From a virus, in the IMG/VR virus record IMGVR_UViG_3300010397_000012, positions 1-56,846 of that record: a stretch of DNA of 56,846 nucleotides; one strand, written 5' to 3'. The position numbers and the translations under genes were made by a program. The number at the start of each line of letters is the position of its first letter. The first letter of the stretch is position 1. Below the pieces are notes generated by a model. It was not told the origin of the DNA, made no database searches, and worked only from the letters and a program-made list of their open reading frames with translations. Positions 1,461 to 27,312 of this stretch are shown here, one piece after another.

Positions 1461-4543
<3,083 letters not shown>

Positions 4544-7434: not shown

Positions 7435-7932
7435 ATGAGTGTAGTTGCAATGCCCACAAAACCGCAACCCGTGAAACGTGTCGGGCTCGCGCTGGAGTAC
7501 CTGAACCGCTGGCCTGAGCCCTTGCGTCCTACGGGCTACATCGCATGGGGCGACGATCTCACGCTCGGCCTCATGGACGGCTCATCGCCGACGACCGTGA
7601 CGATCTTCTGCGGATCGATCGAGTCACATCTGGCCGAGGGCGCTGTGTTCAGCCTGATCCAGAAGCTCTACCGGACCGACGACATTGACTGCTTTCTCGA
7701 CCGCTATGACGTGTGCGTGGCGCGCGAGCGCGACACGGTGCCGGCGGCGGTGTATGTGCAGCACCACCGGCACACCGATCCAGCGTTCAGCGTGCTCGCC
7801 CTCTACACGTTCGCGCAAGCCATCTTGGACTACGCGTGCGGGAAAGAGGACTACAACGGGCAGATCGAACGGCTGAAGGCGACGATCCACGCGATCGAAT
7901 CCGAGCGCGACGGAAAGGCGGTGCGGGCATGA
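7435..7932 (+). CDS. Hypothetical protein upstream of ERF, 165 aa
   Basis: Soluble alpha/beta protein with several Trp and Tyr residues in the N-terminal half and a charged C-terminal helix (GQIERLKATIHAIESERDG). GAGAGTGAGG upstream serves as ribosome binding site. Its TGA overlaps the ATG of the ERF gene, linking it to the recombination module. Family not recognised. Confidence 0.55.
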   Translation: MSVVAMPTKPQPVKRVGLALEYLNRWPEPLRPTGYIAWGDDLTLGLMDGSSPTTVTIFCGSIESHLAEGAVFSLIQKLYRTDDIDCFLDRYDVCVARERDTVPAAVYVQHHRHTDPAFSVLALYTFAQAILDYACGKEDYNGQIERLKATIHAIESERDGKAVRA

Positions 7933-8528
7933 CGACCAGCGAAACCATCAACGAACTCGCCGCCGCTCTAGCGAAGGCTCAGATCGAAATGACCGGGGCT
8001 AAGAAGGACAGCACCAACCCGCACTTCAAGTCGGCGTATGCGGACCTGGCGTCCGTGCGCGACGCGGCCAAGCCGCTCGCATCTCACGGTATCGCGGTCA
8101 TTCAGTCCTGCCGCATGGCGACCACCGAGGCCGGCCAGATGGTCGCGGAAGTCGAGACGCGGCTCGTCCATGCGTCCGGCCAGTGGATGGCCGACACGCT
8201 GGCGGTGCCGGTGTCGAAACCGGACGCGCAGGGCATCGGCTCGGCCATTACCTACGGCCGGCGTTACTCGCTCGCCGCGTTCGCGGGGATTGCCCCGGCC
8301 GACGACGACGGCGAAGCGGCAGTCGGGCGCTCGGCTGGACCGATGCCGGTGGTCACGCCGAAAGAGCCCCAGGGCTTCCAAGACTGGCTGGACGATCTCC
8401 GCGCCAGTTCCACGGACGGCAAGGAAGCACTGCGTCAGGCGTGGAAGGACTCTCCGGCCCAGATGAAGAACTACTACATGGCGACCAATCCAAAGTGGGC
8501 CGACACGCTGAAAGGCTGGACCTCGTGA
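7929..8528 (+). CDS. erf: ERF-family single-strand annealing protein
   Basis: 199 residues. ERF proteins bind single-stranded DNA in rings and anneal complementary strands in phage recombination. The diagnostic ERF signatures are present: NPHFKSAYADLASV near residue 32, GIAVIQSC near 56, and GSAITYGRRYSLAAFAGIAP near 105 followed by an acidic ADDDGEA. The C-terminal part (FQDWLDDLRASS...) is a helical tail, possibly contacting other replication proteins. It is translationally coupled (GTGA) to the YqaJ exonuclease gene, the usual exonuclease plus annealase pair. The ATG at 7929 overlaps the upstream stop and fits the family start. Confidence 0.93.
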   Translation: MTTSETINELAAALAKAQIEMTGAKKDSTNPHFKSAYADLASVRDAAKPLASHGIAVIQSCRMATTEAGQMVAEVETRLVHASGQWMADTLAVPVSKPDAQGIGSAITYGRRYSLAAFAGIAPADDDGEAAVGRSAGPMPVVTPKEPQGFQDWLDDLRASSTDGKEALRQAWKDSPAQMKNYYMATNPKWADTLKGWTS

Positions 8529-9169
8529 AGATTCACACGATGCCCCAACGGTCGCCTGAGTGGTTTCAGGCACGGGCGGGCTTACTCACCGGGTCGGCGG
8601 CGGGCGACATGTTGGCGACCATAAAGACCGGGGAAGCCGCAGCCCGTCGTGACCTCCGCACGCGCCTCGTCACCGAGCGGCTGACGAACAGCCCGCAGGA
8701 GGACACGTTCATCAACGCGGCGATACAGCGCGGAATTGACTGCGAGCCGTTGGCGCTCCAAGCCTACGCGCGGATCACGGGCGAACTCCCCGAACTGGCC
8801 GGGTTCTGCGCGCACGACACCATCCTGGCGGGCTGTTCACCGGATGCCCACGTCGGCGACTGGCACACGCTCGTCAGCCTCAAGTGCCCGAAGTCGAGCA
8901 CGCATCTCGGCTACATCAAGGCCGGGACATTCCCGAGCACCTACGAACCGCAGATGCTCCACGAACTCTGGATCACCGGCGCGCGGGCCTACGACTTCCT
9001 GTCGTGGGATGACCGTTTCCCTGAGCGGCTGCAGACGTTCCATGTGCGCGTGTTGCGCGACGACGCCAAGGTGGACGCCTACGCCGCGAAGGCGATGGCG
9101 TTCCTCGATGAAGTCCAGTTGGAAACCGACGGCCTGCTCGGGTGGGACGTCATGAAGGAGTCCGCGTGA
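8525..9169 (+). CDS. YqaJ / lambda-exonuclease-type recombination nuclease
   Basis: 214 residues, GTG start. Family hallmarks: QRSPEWFQARAGLLTGS at the N-terminus, IQRGIDCEPLALQAY in the middle, then GCSPDAHVGD and LVSLKCPKS, followed by PQMLHELWITGARAYDFLSWD. Lambda exonuclease family members degrade one strand of duplex DNA and hand the other to the annealing protein. In the PD-(D/E)XK core the residue two before the catalytic Lys is Ser (SLK) where lambda exonuclease has Glu (ELK), so metal binding may be completed by another residue. I believe a subfamily shares this form. It overlaps ERF upstream and the HNH gene downstream. Confidence 0.88.
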   Translation: MKIHTMPQRSPEWFQARAGLLTGSAAGDMLATIKTGEAAARRDLRTRLVTERLTNSPQEDTFINAAIQRGIDCEPLALQAYARITGELPELAGFCAHDTILAGCSPDAHVGDWHTLVSLKCPKSSTHLGYIKAGTFPSTYEPQMLHELWITGARAYDFLSWDDRFPERLQTFHVRVLRDDAKVDAYAAKAMAFLDEVQLETDGLLGWDVMKESA

Positions 9170-9759
9170 AGCGGCCGACCGAGCGCCCGTGCCGGTGTTG
9201 CGGGCGCATTTTCTCGTCCGTTGTTGCCGAGTCGTCGCTGTGTTCTCGGTCGTGCGTGAACCGGCTGCGGAAGCTGCCCACGCCTGATCAGAGATTCTGG
9301 CGGAAGGTTGATCGGCGCGGCGTTGACGAGTGCTGGCCGTGGTTGGGTGGAACATCACACGACGGACGTGGCCGGATGCTTTGGACGGACGGGCATCAGT
9401 GGTCCGCTCCGAGAATTGCGTGGGCGCTGGAGTTCGGCTCACCGGCCGAGCGGTCCTTGCACGTCTGCCACACCTGCGACAACCCGAATTGCTGCAACCC
9501 GAAGCACCTATGGCTCGGCACGTCGCGCGACAACGTGGCTGACCGGGACCACAAGAACAGAACCTCAAAAGGCCAAGCGCACTACTGCGCGAAGCTGACG
9601 CCTGAGCAGGTTCTCGACATCTTCTCATCCCCTGATGGGCCGTCCGCTTTGGCGAGAAAGTACGGCGTGAGCGCCAGCGTGACGTCGGCTATCAGGCTCG
9701 GCAAGAAATGGCGACACGTTACGCAGCATGGAGGTTCAGTTGGCTTATCAGAAGGATGA
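9166..9759 (+). CDS. HNH homing-type endonuclease with N-terminal zinc finger
   Basis: About 197 residues from the GTG at 9166, which overlaps the exonuclease stop. The N-terminus has a CRCCG...CSRSC zinc-ribbon. The centre has DECWPWLGG, then HVCHTCDNPNCCNPKHLWLG and NVADRDHKNR, the HNH_3 pattern of free-standing phage homing endonucleases. The C-terminus (SALARKYGVSASVTSAI) is a helix-turn-helix DNA-reading element. It interrupts the recombination module and overlaps the next gene by about 20 nt, as expected for a selfish insertion between essential genes. Confidence 0.85.
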   Translation: MKRPTERPCRCCGRIFSSVVAESSLCSRSCVNRLRKLPTPDQRFWRKVDRRGVDECWPWLGGTSHDGRGRMLWTDGHQWSAPRIAWALEFGSPAERSLHVCHTCDNPNCCNPKHLWLGTSRDNVADRDHKNRTSKGQAHYCAKLTPEQVLDIFSSPDGPSALARKYGVSASVTSAIRLGKKWRHVTQHGGSVGLSEG

Positions 9760-9952
9760 CTCAGAGCTTGGTGCCTTGTGGGTAAAAAGCAGCGCCAAGG
9801 GGCCGTATATGACCGGCGAGATCAACGGCGTCAAAGTGGTGTGTTTCCCCGCGAAGAAGTCCAGTGACAAGTCGCCTGACTGGCGCGTCCTGAAGTCGAA
9901 GCCGCTCGCTGGCACCGCGCCCGCAGAGCCCCGTGGCGGTGACTGGGAATGA
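9740..9952 (+). CDS. Small conserved protein of the recombination module, 70 aa
   Basis: I choose the TTG at 9740 rather than the ATG at 9728. A perfect GGAGG (9730-9734) lies 5 nt before the TTG, and the product then begins MAYQKDDSELGALWVK, which looks like a natural N-terminus. The body (YMTGEINGVKVVCFPAKK, SPDWRVLKSKP) resembles small DUF736-like beta-barrel phage proteins often found near ERF or exonuclease genes. The role is unknown. The overlap with the HNH gene may reflect homing-endonuclease insertion. Confidence 0.65.
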   Translation: MAYQKDDSELGALWVKSSAKGPYMTGEINGVKVVCFPAKKSSDKSPDWRVLKSKPLAGTAPAEPRGGDWE

Positions 9953-10377
9953 TCTTCCAGGCGTTCTGCGACGACGACGCCCACTTCGCGCTGGACAACC
10001 GGCCGGCGTGGCTCGCGTTCCTCGGCACGGTGCGCGGTTCCGAGTTGACCGTGACCGTGGAGAAGAAGTCGCGGAAGCGGAGCGTCGTCCAGAACGCCTG
10101 GCTGTGGGGTGTGGCCTATCCGCTGATCGCGGAGTCGATCGGCTACGACCACCACGAGCACGAGCATCTGCACTACGACTTGCTGGCTGTGCGGTTCGGC
10201 ACGAAGGCCGTGACGCCGCTCGTTGACGGAGCGCCGCCGCGCATCGTGCCTAAGCAGACCAGCGCCGGCCTCACGACAAAAGAGTTCAGCGAATACATGG
10301 AATGGCTGGTGCGGTTCGCCGCGGAGAAGTTCTCCGTCGTGCTGCCGCTACCGGACGAGAAACGAGAGGCCGCGTGA
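9949..10377 (+). CDS. NinB-like recombination protein
   Basis: 142 residues. Recognisable blocks are ELTVTVEKKSRKRSVVQNAW, LWGVAYPLIAESIGY, and the C-terminal LTTKEFSEYMEWLVRFAAEK. NinB (lambda Orf) and relatives share the pattern of a basic RS-x-x-QN-x-x-W segment, a replaced middle and a TT-x-EF helix. NinB helps recombinases load by binding single-stranded DNA and SSB. Its presence directly after ERF and the exonuclease supports the role. The assignment is by pattern only. Confidence 0.6.
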   Translation: MIFQAFCDDDAHFALDNRPAWLAFLGTVRGSELTVTVEKKSRKRSVVQNAWLWGVAYPLIAESIGYDHHEHEHLHYDLLAVRFGTKAVTPLVDGAPPRIVPKQTSAGLTTKEFSEYMEWLVRFAAEKFSVVLPLPDEKREAA

Positions 10378-10586
10378 CTTGGTTTCAATGCCCGCACTGT
10401 CTCCGGCGCGGTGAGCCAGAGGACGCCCGCGAAGGCTGGGAATCCGGCGACCGTGATCAACCAGGCTACGCCTTCGACGCCTGTCGGGTCTGTATGCCGT
10501 CAGAGGAGGACCGCGAGCGTGCCGCCGAGGCGAAGGCGGACGCCATGCGCGACGAGGCCACGAACGGCCCGGACGGGTGGCGCTGA
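10374..10586 (+). CDS. Zinc-ribbon protein, 70 aa
   Basis: GTGA overlap start. CPHC at residues 6-9 and CRVC near 39-42 form a four-cysteine zinc ribbon; the rest is a charged helix (EEDRERAAEAKADAMRDE). Function unknown; such small ribbons are typical of phage early operons. Confidence 0.55.
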   Translation: MTWFQCPHCLRRGEPEDAREGWESGDRDQPGYAFDACRVCMPSEEDRERAAEAKADAMRDEATNGPDGWR

Positions 10587-10780
10587 TGGATACCGGGATC
10601 AGGAACTTCGACATCGTGAACGCCATGCGCGACTTTGGCGGCTCGTTCGTCCAGGCGCTCGCGGCGGCCTTCGAGCGGGCCGACGCCGAGAACTTCGAGA
10701 AGCTGAAGACGGCATTCCCAGAGTATTGGGCGGAATACGCCGACCTCGCCACGCTGCGAAAGGTGCGCGCCAATGCCTGA
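10586..10780 (+). CDS. Small hypothetical protein, 64 aa
   Basis: Starts in a TGATG overlap; alpha-helical, with RNFDIVNAMRDFGGSFVQAL and a Trp/Tyr-containing C-terminal helix. It overlaps the HNH gene by 8 nt. Family not recognised by name. Confidence 0.5.
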   Translation: MDTGIRNFDIVNAMRDFGGSFVQALAAAFERADAENFEKLKTAFPEYWAEYADLATLRKVRANA

Positions 10781-11222
10781 CCTCATCCGCAACGCGCCGC
10801 AGAAGCCGACCAGACTGTCCCGTGACGTGGCGTCGTGGGCGCGGCGGGTCAACCGTGCGGCGGCGAAGAACAAGGCCGTGAAAGCCTCACACGCGGCCTG
10901 GGCGAAGGTGTCGAAGGCTGTCAAGGCGCGGCACGGTGGCCGCTGCCGGATCTGCCGCTGCCGCACGACGGTGGCCGGGAGCGGCGCGAACCCCAACCAC
11001 TTTGGCTCGGCGCATCACATCGTCTACCGCTCAGCCGGTGGAGCGGACGACCTGCAGAACCTGATCTGGCTGTGCGCGGAGTGCCACCAGAAGGAACACG
11101 CGCACGAGTTAGACATCCGAGGCACGGCCGACAAACTGAAGATCACGATCCACCTGAAGGCTGACCGGCGCCTGGCGTGCAAGGAAAGGGGGCGACCGCG
11201 TGATCAAGACCTACAAGTGTGA
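10773..11222 (+). CDS. HNH endonuclease
   Basis: 149 residues. Basic N-terminal helices precede GGRCRICRCRT, SAHHIVYRSAGGADDLQNL and LCAECHQKEHAH, the Cys-x2-Cys, HH, N, Cys-x2-Cys-x3-H arrangement of classical HNH nucleases with a structural zinc. In this context it may be a DNA-processing nuclease of the replication operon rather than a homing enzyme, because it is tightly coupled to both neighbours. That role is inferred. Confidence 0.85.
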   Translation: MPDLIRNAPQKPTRLSRDVASWARRVNRAAAKNKAVKASHAAWAKVSKAVKARHGGRCRICRCRTTVAGSGANPNHFGSAHHIVYRSAGGADDLQNLIWLCAECHQKEHAHELDIRGTADKLKITIHLKADRRLACKERGRPRDQDLQV

Positions 11223-12393: not shown

Positions 12394-13236
12394 ATGGGAA
12401 GAGCCCCAGCGTTCCAGTTCTACGCGGCGGATTTTTTAGTGGGTACGAGTGAGATGTCAGTCGGGGAAGTCGGCTTATACGTGCGGATGTTGGCGTTGTC
12501 GTGGGACAAGGGCGCCCTGCCCTCAGAGCACGACCGCCTGGCCCGGATGGTGGGCGTGTCGCTGAGGGAGTTCCGGGCGCTCTGGTGTGCGGTGGCCGAG
12601 AAGTGGACTGTCACCGAGGCCGGATACGTCAACGGACGCCTCGAAGATCAACGCGACCAGCGGCAAGCGTTCGCCCAAGTGAGGGCTGCGGCTGGACGAA
12701 AAAGCGGCGAGTCACGACGAACGAAACGTGAACACAACGCGAACATAAGCGGAACACAAGACGAACAAACACCCCAACGAAAACGAACTCTTCAGTCTTC
12801 AGTCTTCGATCTTCAGACTTCAGATCAAGAGCACACACACCCCGCGCGAGTGGCGACGAACCCTCACTCGACGTCGACAAACCTCGTCAACGGCTCACAG
12901 CAGCGCCTTCACGGTTCGCACGCCTGGTGCTCATGGCCGGTTCGAGACGGGCTGTGTGTGCCGATGTTTCTGCACCGCGAGTTCGTGGGCAAAGGCGGCA
13001 AGACGGACGCCGAAATGATGGCGTGGTACGTGGGCACGCTTGAGCGGTTCGATGGTGTCGCCGTTGGGGAGGACGCGCTGACGTTCTGGCGCCGGGAGTT
13101 CTCGGCCTGGATTGGGATCGCGTCCACGGCGGCGGTGGCTGAACGTCCTGGGCGTGCCGAGCGGGTGATGAGCGCGGCCGAGCGGGTGATTGCGAAGCAG
13201 ATCGAACACCACAAGGCGGTGACAGATGGCCGATAG
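12394..13236 (+). CDS. DUF1376-type replication initiation protein
   Basis: 280 residues. The start at 12394 follows GGAAGGCGGCGG and gives the family N-terminus APAFQFYAADFLVGTSEMS, followed by GEVGLYVRMLALSWDKGALP. DUF1376 proteins are phage replication initiator-like proteins with a winged helix N-terminus. The middle (about 105-160) is a low-complexity linker, and the C-terminal third (AWYVGTLERFDGV, TFWRREFSAWIG) is a second helical domain. The DNA coding for the linker contains 11-bp and 7-bp tandem repeats, as lambda carries ori inside gene O. The next gene is loader-like, matching the O-P arrangement. Confidence 0.75.
   Translation: MGRAPAFQFYAADFLVGTSEMSVGEVGLYVRMLALSWDKGALPSEHDRLARMVGVSLREFRALWCAVAEKWTVTEAGYVNGRLEDQRDQRQAFAQVRAAAGRKSGESRRTKREHNANISGTQDEQTPQRKRTLQSSVFDLQTSDQEHTHPARVATNPHSTSTNLVNGSQQRLHGSHAWCSWPVRDGLCVPMFLHREFVGKGGKTDAEMMAWYVGTLERFDGVAVGEDALTFWRREFSAWIGIASTAAVAERPGRAERVMSAAERVIAKQIEHHKAVTDGR
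12719..12824 (+). repeat. Iteron cluster, probable replication origin
   Basis: GAAC recurs at 12719, 12730, 12741, 12752 and 12763, exactly 11 bp apart, with an imperfect CAAC at 12775 and GAAC again at 12785; the consensus unit is about GAACACAACGC. Directly downstream, 12790-12824 holds five contiguous 7-mers: CTTCAGT, CTTCAGT, CTTCGAT, CTTCAGA, CTTCAGA. Neither period is a multiple of three although both lie in coding DNA, so the constraint is at the DNA level. The segment is A-rich compared with its surroundings. Confidence 0.7.
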
Positions 13237-13642
13237 CGGAACGGGCAAGCCCCTCGTCACGGCGGCACTGGCGAAACTCTCGATCCTCCGGCAAGCGTCC
13301 GACGTGAGCGACCTCACGCTCGACCTCTACGCGGCCGAACTCGAAGCGGCCGGCATCACGCCCGACGTCGTGGTGATCGCCTGCCAGGGGCTTCAGTCGC
13401 AACCGCGGGCGGAAGGCGAGACGGCATTCCCGAGCCTCGGGACGCTGCTCGAGCGGTGCTACGCGATTCGCCGCGAGTGGCAGAAGCAAGCCGAGGCCGT
13501 CGCCAGCCAGCGGCTCCTCGAGGCCGAGCGCAGCGGCCAGCGGAACATGACGAAGGCCGAGGCGGCGGCGTTCATCGCGCAACTGAAGGCCGACGTCGAT
13601 CGCCGGGTGCGTGAACTCCGAGACGAGAAGGCGCCGCGATGA
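13226..13642 (+). CDS. Putative helicase loader-like protein
   Basis: 138 residues, overlapping the end of the DUF1376 gene. The N-terminal half (LSILRQASDVSDLTLDLYAA, ITPDVVVIACQGL, FPSLGTLLERC) follows the helical pattern of the phage G39P/loader N-terminal domain, in which a helix bundle is followed by a FPS/FPP-x-x-x-x-L segment. The C-terminal half is a long charged helix. Position right after an initiator with internal iterons supports a helicase-loading role, as with lambda P. The homology is tentative. Confidence 0.5.
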   Translation: MADSGTGKPLVTAALAKLSILRQASDVSDLTLDLYAAELEAAGITPDVVVIACQGLQSQPRAEGETAFPSLGTLLERCYAIRREWQKQAEAVASQRLLEAERSGQRNMTKAEAAAFIAQLKADVDRRVRELRDEKAPR

Positions 13643-26040: not shown

Positions 26041-27312
26041 GTGAAAGGCCCCGCCAAGGTCAGCCACATCAAGGACTTGGTGCCGGACCCGCAGAACCGT
26101 CGGAAGCACAACCCCCGGAATATCGGCATGGTGGTGGACGCGCTGCACCAGGTGGGCGCGGCCCGGTCGATCGTCATCGACGAAGACAACGTGATTCTGG
26201 CAGGGAACGGGGTCACGGAAGCGGCGGCCGAGGCCGGGATCACGAAGGTGCGCGTTGTGGACGTGGCCGGCGACGAACTCGTGGCGGTGCGGCGGATCGG
26301 GCTGACGGTGGAGCAGAAGCGGACGCTGGCCATCGCGGACAACCGGGCGGCGGAACTGGCCGAGTGGGATTCCGAACAGTTGGCGGCGGACGTGGCGGAC
26401 GGGCTGAGCCTGCAGCCTTGGTTCTCGGACGAGGAGCAGGCCGCACTCCTGGCGAAGCATCTGCCACCCGTGGACGGGTTGACCGACCCAGACGCGGTGC
26501 CGGCCGAGCGGGCGACGGACATCAAGCCCGGAGACCTGTTCCAGTTAGGGCGGCATCGACTGCTGTGCGGTGACTGTACCGATCCGACTCTGGTGGAGCG
26601 GCTGATGGACGGGGCGCGCGCCGGGCTGATGAACACCGACCCGCCGTACGGGGTGACATACGCCAATGACGACAGGCCAAATCCCGGAGTAGCCAAACCC
26701 AGAGTAGCCAATGACACGCTAGAAGCCGAGAACCTTCAGCGGTTCCTTGAGTCGGCTTTCGGCATGGCGAAGCTCGTCGCGTTAGCCGAGAACGCGGCGT
26801 GGTACATGTGGCACGCCCATCTCACTCAGGGGTACTTTGCAGCAGCAGCAGCAGCAGCAGCAGCAGATGTGATCCTTCATCGCCAAATCATCTGGGTGAA
26901 GCCGGTCCTCCTACTCGGGCGCGGCCATTACCACTGGAAGCACGAGCCATGTTTCATGGGGTGGGTCGACGGCCACCAGCCGCCAGACTACGGCCTCGGC
27001 CAAGGTGAACGGACCCAGACGACTATCTGGGAAATCGCGCACGTCACGCAGGCTGAGCGGAAAGAGTTCAACCATTCCACGCCCAAGCCGGTCGGGCTGT
27101 TCACGATTCCCATCGTGAAGCACCTCCGCGGCGGGGAGTCCTGTTACGAGCCGTTCGCTGGAAGCGGGCCACAATTTATCGCCGCCGAGCAGCACGGCGT
27201 GGCCTGCCACGGGACAGAACTAGAGCCGCGGTTCTGCCAAGTCATCATCGACCGCTGGGAAGCCTTCACAGGACTTCATGTTGAGAAGCTCGGCGAGGTG
27301 GTCCCGGCATGA
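26041..27312 (+). CDS. ParB-like domain fused to an N6-adenine DNA methyltransferase
   Basis: 423 residues, GTG start. Residues about 5-110 are a ParB/Srx-type domain (IKDLVPDPQNRRKHNPRNIG, AGNGVTEAAAEAG, AIADNRAAELAEWD). Next comes LGRHRLLCGDCTD. Methyltransferase motif IV, DPPY, is at 200-203, and motif I, FAGSG, at 372-376 near the C-terminus. The order IV before I is that of the beta class. The product probably methylates phage DNA, giving protection from host restriction or marking packaging DNA. Its location between cos-like DNA and terminase is common for ParB-methyltransferases. A run of nine Ala (coded by a GCA repeat) lies around residues 267-275. Confidence 0.9.
   Translation: MKGPAKVSHIKDLVPDPQNRRKHNPRNIGMVVDALHQVGAARSIVIDEDNVILAGNGVTEAAAEAGITKVRVVDVAGDELVAVRRIGLTVEQKRTLAIADNRAAELAEWDSEQLAADVADGLSLQPWFSDEEQAALLAKHLPPVDGLTDPDAVPAERATDIKPGDLFQLGRHRLLCGDCTDPTLVERLMDGARAGLMNTDPPYGVTYANDDRPNPGVAKPRVANDTLEAENLQRFLESAFGMAKLVALAENAAWYMWHAHLTQGYFAAAAAAAAADVILHRQIIWVKPVLLLGRGHYHWKHEPCFMGWVDGHQPPDYGLGQGERTQTTIWEIAHVTQAERKEFNHSTPKPVGLFTIPIVKHLRGGESCYEPFAGSGPQFIAAEQHGVACHGTELEPRFCQVIIDRWEAFTGLHVEKLGEVVPA
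26839..26865 (+). repeat. (GCA)9 microsatellite inside the methyltransferase gene
   Basis: Nine uninterrupted GCA triplets code for nine alanines between GYF and DVILHR, in the segment between motifs IV and I where target-recognition sequences usually lie. Such pure triplet runs expand and contract by slippage without breaking the frame, so the Ala length may vary between isolates. Confidence 0.85.

Follow-up and report, generated by a model that had tools for sequence, protein, structure and literature searches.

Why would a phage gene carry, inside its coding sequence, two rows of short repeats whose periods ignore the reading frame? The gene in question lies at 12394-13236 of the virus record IMGVR_UViG_3300010397_000012, whose whole stretch of 56,846 nucleotides (nt) we analyzed and refer to as the window, and it encodes a protein with a DUF1376 domain, a 'domain of unknown function'. 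The original prediction, made from the letters alone, had placed the repeats inside a replication gene and likened them to the origin within lambda gene O; they indeed lie within the linker-coding stretch of a gene that likely encodes a replication initiator. We put a probability of roughly 0.78 on the reading that these repeats form the replication origin of the phage, situated within its own initiator gene and composed of two arrays, A and B. The features that bear on this reading are the following.

12394-13236, + strand: DUF1376 gene (280 amino acids from the ATG at 12394; PF07120; PHROG 9327), the proposed initiator carrying its own origin

12397-12720, + strand: DUF1376 domain and long C-terminal helix, a predicted winged helix and the proposed DNA-binding part

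12719-12788, + strand: array A, with GAAC cores at 12719, 12730, 12741, 12752, 12763 and 12785, six in all on an exact 11-bp grid whose slot at 12774 is empty

12790-12824, + strand: array B, five contiguous 7-bp units directly 3′ of the last GAAC

12720-12839, no strand assigned: GC-poor dip over both arrays (45% GC versus 64.8% for the record), a possible unwinding region

Both arrays are coding throughout, in the frame set by the ATG at 12394, and lie just 3′ of the segment that codes for the DUF1376 domain (12412-12651). Because neither 11 nor 7 is divisible by 3, repeat copies occur in all three frames, in agreement with the earlier claim that the two periods break the codon rhythm. The five consecutive GAAC copies of that claim are present (12719-12763), whereas the slip said to follow them is not, as the sixth copy stands 22 bp further on, in phase, with one unit absent. 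The five contiguous CTTCAGT-type 7-mers were found as described, at 12790-12796 and 12797-12803 (both CTTCAGT), 12804-12810 (CTTCGAT), and 12811-12817 and 12818-12824 (both CTTCAGA), giving the formula CTTC(A/G)(G/A)(T/A). A scan of all 56,846 bases for any 4-mer repeated at least five times at a fixed period of 5-30 returned only three runs, GAAC/11 at 12719, CTTC/7 at 12790 and a trinucleotide (GCA) run at 26839, and Tandem Repeats Finder recovered arrays A and B independently. When the whole gene was subjected to 20,000 synonymous-codon shuffles, none reached its best lag-7 score (19) and 18 matched its best lag-11 score (18; p ~0.001); none of 20,000 free shuffles of codon order reached either. 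A chance origin of the arrays is rejected by the 4-mer scan and the synonymous shuffles. The dip over the linker is the second least GC-rich of all 120-bp stretches in the window.

Members of the little-studied DUF1376 family are spread over the phages and prophages of many bacteria; E. coli K-12 has one in its Rac prophage (ydaU). We drew relatives from IMG/VR, GTDB genomes, named phages and E. coli K-12, arriving at 130 non-redundant DUF1376 genes. For every gene and lag, we scored the strongest local self-match and set it against 300 synonymously shuffled versions of that gene (cut-off p ≤ 0.01). Linker signal is most frequent at lag 7 (54% of genes), followed by lags 14 (40%), 11 (24%), 22 (22%), 21 (21%), 6 (17%), 12 (16%) and 23 (10%), with the remaining lags from 4 to 24 at or below ~5%. 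The C-terminal segment shows signal in 0-2% of genes at every lag, and the domain segment has a lag-11 signal in 19%, as expected if array A extends into the end of the domain. The comparison with linker DNA of homologous genes, which the original prediction had called for, is positive, with a 6/7 or 11/12 signal in 106 of the 130 genes. Within the ~3-kb locus, the strongest lag-7 segment lies in the linker in 88 of the 130 (10.9 expected by length) and the strongest lag-11 segment lies there in 62. Where a gene has both arrays, the 11/12-bp array precedes the 6/7-bp array in 30 of 33 cases.

The linkers of these relatives follow a common plan in differing letters. Array A reads, for example, CGACCGTTCAA in a Moraxella phage, GACGTTCAACG in a Sinorhizobium phage and GAACCACCCTTT in locus L019; array B is built from CTTCAGT (L009, L019, L020, L022), TCTTCA (L060), CCAGAAG (phiLM21), AACCAAG (BA3), CCTAAC (Microcystis phage), TCTGCA (L041) or CTCCGAT (L013). 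An unbiased scan found (CTTCAGT)x3 in nine IMG/VR contigs, and in five of them it falls inside a linker, either of a DUF1376 gene or of a replication gene that looks like one. Loci L021 and L056-L067 hold replication-like genes with a DUF1376-like start and similar linker arrays (CTTCAGT or TCTTCA); they score below the Pfam cut-off where tested and were excluded from the statistics. The array may therefore reach beyond DUF1376 genes proper. Further (CTTCAGT)n arrays, at L017, L018, L023 and L025, are unlinked to DUF1376 genes, and those at L017 and L023 adjoin inverted copies of the ACTGAAAACTGAAAA type.

Repeats of this kind could also be functionless, grown by slippage in a weakly constrained linker rich in Ser, Asn and Pro. 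The linker's protein sequence is poorly conserved, in-frame TCT/TCA runs in some arrays encode poly-Ser, and heptamer arrays occur between genes elsewhere (the four unlinked loci above), all of which would suit such a history. We nonetheless consider it very unlikely: synonymous shuffles do not reproduce the signal, and the periods (6/7 and 11/12), the order and the motif recur in distant phages. In A2, the largest subfamily, 52 genes have 7-bp arrays with the unit AACCANN, and identity within arrays is 0.79-0.96 over the AACCA core but 0.41 and 0.36 at the two spacer bases, with copies spread over the three codon phases (76/64/68). These copies do not vary evenly along the unit, unlike those of microsatellite slippage in low-complexity coding DNA, and a conserved core with a free spacer argues for a row of binding sites instead. 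Codon conservation served as a check for neutral-microsatellite turnover among close relatives, and the opposite was seen: at conserved degenerate residues, codon identity is 0.75 in the linker, 0.56 in the domain and 0.43 in the C-terminus (584 related-gene pairs, not independent), with the linker above the domain in 542 of the 584. Slippage and a protein-level repeat were both rejected on the shuffles, the core-versus-spacer pattern and these codon identities. Since shuffles fail to reproduce the signal, cores are kept in all phases and linker codons are the most conserved, the linker repeats are under selection on DNA rather than on protein. The DNA-level selection suspected earlier is in this way supported both in the window gene and across the 130 genes, and the linker arrays illustrate how such selection can override codon structure.

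Sequence comparison further indicates that arrays A and B are separate elements. The coding strand of array B is poor in G (A.41, C.31, G.06, T.22; C exceeds G in 84 of 88), and its motif is TCTTC-like in 35 of 50 A1 and A4 genes and AACCA in A2. The cores of array A vary between phages (GAACA, GTTCA, AACCA, ATGCA, GGCCA, GCGAC), as initiator sites would. That the array B motif stays steady while array A cores differ (in A1 and A4) hints at different readers. One variant of our reading would have array A bound by the phage initiator and array B by a host protein (DnaA, primase, helicase loader or single-strand DNA-binding protein). The retention of one array B motif class is in its favor, as is the observation that DnaD and DnaA read short single-stranded DNA (ssDNA) repeats at oriC (PMC10201434), and a gene for a DnaA C-domain adjoins in some phages. 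Enrichment for TnnT is modest, however (mean z ~1.5 on the top strand in A1 and A4, 1.25 on the bottom strand in A2; the window's pitch is 7 bp), many motifs fit neither the DnaA-trio nor TnnT, and motif class tracks initiator subfamily, as recognition by the initiator predicts; we regard a host reader as possible but doubtful. A DnaA-trio or TnnT reading of array B as such fits only in part, with CTCCGAT, CCTAAC and TCTGCA breaking either rule. Reasoning by analogy, we suggest only tentatively that array B could be a sequence-specific opening element of a new type, a single-strand recognition array with a 6-7-nt step beside one-turn boxes. So read, it might be the phage counterpart of DnaA-trios or of the DnaD recognition element, kept across DUF1376 phages in coding DNA, although we would put the odds of this below even.

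The protein encoded by the window gene matches PF07120 (E=1.1e-12; 48.6 bits against a Pfam gathering score of 30.1, and 51.1 bits in another search) and the 'primosomal protein' family PHROG 9327 (E=1e-20). AlphaFold2 models the DUF1376 domain at a predicted local distance difference test score (pLDDT) of 93.3 as helices with a two-stranded wing, which predicts a winged helix with high confidence. VIA-align relates this model to RepA_N initiators, the DnaD N-domain and other winged helices at Z 5.0-5.8, below the level of kinship, and one RepA_N structure among its best fold neighbors is DNA-bound. A Pfam search of the gene product matched DUF1376 alone and did not find the lambda O origin-binding domain. 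In E. coli YdaU, the C-terminal third matches the C-termini of lambda-O-like proteins with other N-domains, which makes DUF1376 appear to stand in for their origin-binding domain.

What is directly seen is the two arrays, which are conserved at the DNA level, keep their order and recur widely in the family, together with a winged-helix fold predicted with confidence; from this we infer binding, unwinding, helicase loading and a start of replication at the arrays. The protein made from the same gene would bind array A through its winged-helix DUF1376 domain; the pitch of this array, 11-12 bp, corresponds to one helical turn and would set all sites on one face, yielding an ordered initiator complex. 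Array B, with its 6-7-bp step, G-poor coding strand and GC-poor dip, would be the adjoining stretch that opens, and its repeated strand would offer a sequence-specific platform for single-strand binding or for loading of the helicase. Recruitment of the helicase would then fall to the C-terminal part of the DUF1376 protein or to the product of the next gene.

Several observations weigh against an origin. Neither signal is present at p ≤ 0.01 in 24 of the 130 genes; 72 of the 130 belong to one subfamily, which makes the counts interdependent. By the shuffle statistic, E. coli ydaU is itself marginal (p=0.023 for lag 11, p=0.10 for array B), and the fold matches are weak, with no Foldseek E below 0.07 and Z below 6. 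The GC-skew feature anticipated near 12.7-12.8 kb did not appear: the change-point in the window lies at 9.0 kb, without a clear sign change, and there is no step at the linker, either here or among 34 related loci. This absence of support from GC skew suits a DNA-level element other than an origin, such as an operator through which the DUF1376 protein or some other regulator acts on transcription, or else a site for packaging, recombination or antitermination; operators too can have one-turn-phased repeats, and array A motifs differ by phage, like repressor sites. Such an element nevertheless seems improbable to us. In nearly all members the arrays are located well within the gene, next to helicase or loader genes, initiator sites within the gene constitute the origin in lambda O (PMC7466680) and pSK41 rep (PMC5703833), and the strand asymmetry and low GC of array B are features of the unwinding type.

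The gene downstream was described by the original prediction as loader-like.

13226-13642, + strand: next gene, encoding a small all-helical protein, at a position often held by DnaC/IstB-type, DnaB, primase-helicase or DnaA-like genes in other DUF1376 phages

That description is not established, as its product has no Pfam, NCBIfam or significant PHROG match and no viral homologue, and its structural model is of low confidence with no convincing fold match. In named phages, the gene after DUF1376 often encodes DnaB, DnaC/IstB, a primase-helicase, 'replication protein P' or a DnaA C-domain. A small gene with PF08299, the DnaA box-binding C-domain, stands directly 3′ of the DUF1376 gene in two rhizobial phages (L088, 2411-2725; L097, 2271-2729). 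Upstream in the window, 7929-11222 holds genes for an ERF annealing protein, a YqaJ exonuclease, a NinB-like protein and an HNH protein, a recombination module beside the proposed origin. Long 9/18/66-bp repeats of the GGNCCNACN type at 1947-4046 are consistent with a collagen-like Gly-X-Y protein. In other loci, a C-run hairpin (CCCCCCTA..CCCCCC..GGGGGG, encoding PPLNPPRG-like peptides) lies 3′ of the arrays (L070, which is E. coli ydaU, L195, L080, L083, L166, L052, L099 and L343); the C4..C4..G4 pattern occurs in 8 of the 130 genes against 0.26 expected under synonymous shuffles. This hairpin is not in the window, and a similar C-run occurs in lambda-O-like genes.

A literature search found no DUF1376 or YdaU origin, most subscription journals being outside its coverage; DUF1376 was mentioned in just five papers, none of them seen to link it to an origin. 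A family-wide two-array origin within the gene, for which we found no earlier description, is probable on present comparisons. If correct, DUF1376 would gain a function, and the sequences of many phages would show directly where their origins lie. A two-part origin within a gene would also become open to testing, as to which of its parts is bound, which one opens and what brings this about.

How does this proposed origin relate to known systems? In lambda and Stx phages, iterons and an AT-rich tract lie in the middle of gene O (PMC7466680), and at lags 20 and 23 our shuffle statistic picks up the iterons annotated in lambda. The analogy with gene O holds for the in-gene way of working: repeats lie inside the initiator gene, between the parts for the N- and C-domains, and iterons are followed by a low-stability tract. 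A loader gene comes next in lambda, as loader-type genes often do in other DUF1376 phages. The analogy fails for the pitch (~20 bp, two turns, in lambda; 11 bp in the window and 11/12 bp in the family), for the iterons, which are inverted repeats in lambda, and for the N-domain, which is of a different family. A lambda O scan intended as a diverse control gave near-identical copies only, and seven lambda-O-like genes were used instead; their pitch is mostly 17-24 bp, none has a 7-bp array and one has a 6-bp array, so that the second array is absent from six of the seven.

In the plasmid pSK41, four Rep boxes lie at the center of rep, where the encoded part of the protein is dispensable; the winged-helix N-domain of Rep binds the boxes and its C-domain recruits replication factors (PMC5703833). 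The DUF1376 gene resembles rep in having candidate initiator boxes within the coding region (by position only), and RepA_N structures are among the top-ranked fold neighbors of the DUF1376 model (Z 5.1-5.7 to 4pql, 5kbj, 4pt7 and 4pta; best Foldseek E 0.07, weak), with no Pfam RepA_N match to the gene product. Unlike the DUF1376 genes, pSK41 has no 6/7-bp array described beside its four boxes (PMC5703833). Short repeats beside initiator boxes are also found in the ssDNA-binding DNA unwinding element repeats of TrfA and RepE, read on one strand at opening (PMC4081077), in DnaA-trios and in the DnaD element (PMC10201434); their step is 13 nt (TrfA) or a trinucleotide or TnnT, whereas array B steps by 7 or 6 nt and has several cores unrelated to one another. 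The readers of such single-strand repeats, TrfA/RepE and DnaD, may nevertheless serve as a model for how array B could be recognized. By analogy, then, the DUF1376 origin would work like those of lambda O and pSK41 RepA_N and yet be a distinct variant, because of its one-turn pitch and its strand-asymmetric 6/7-bp array.
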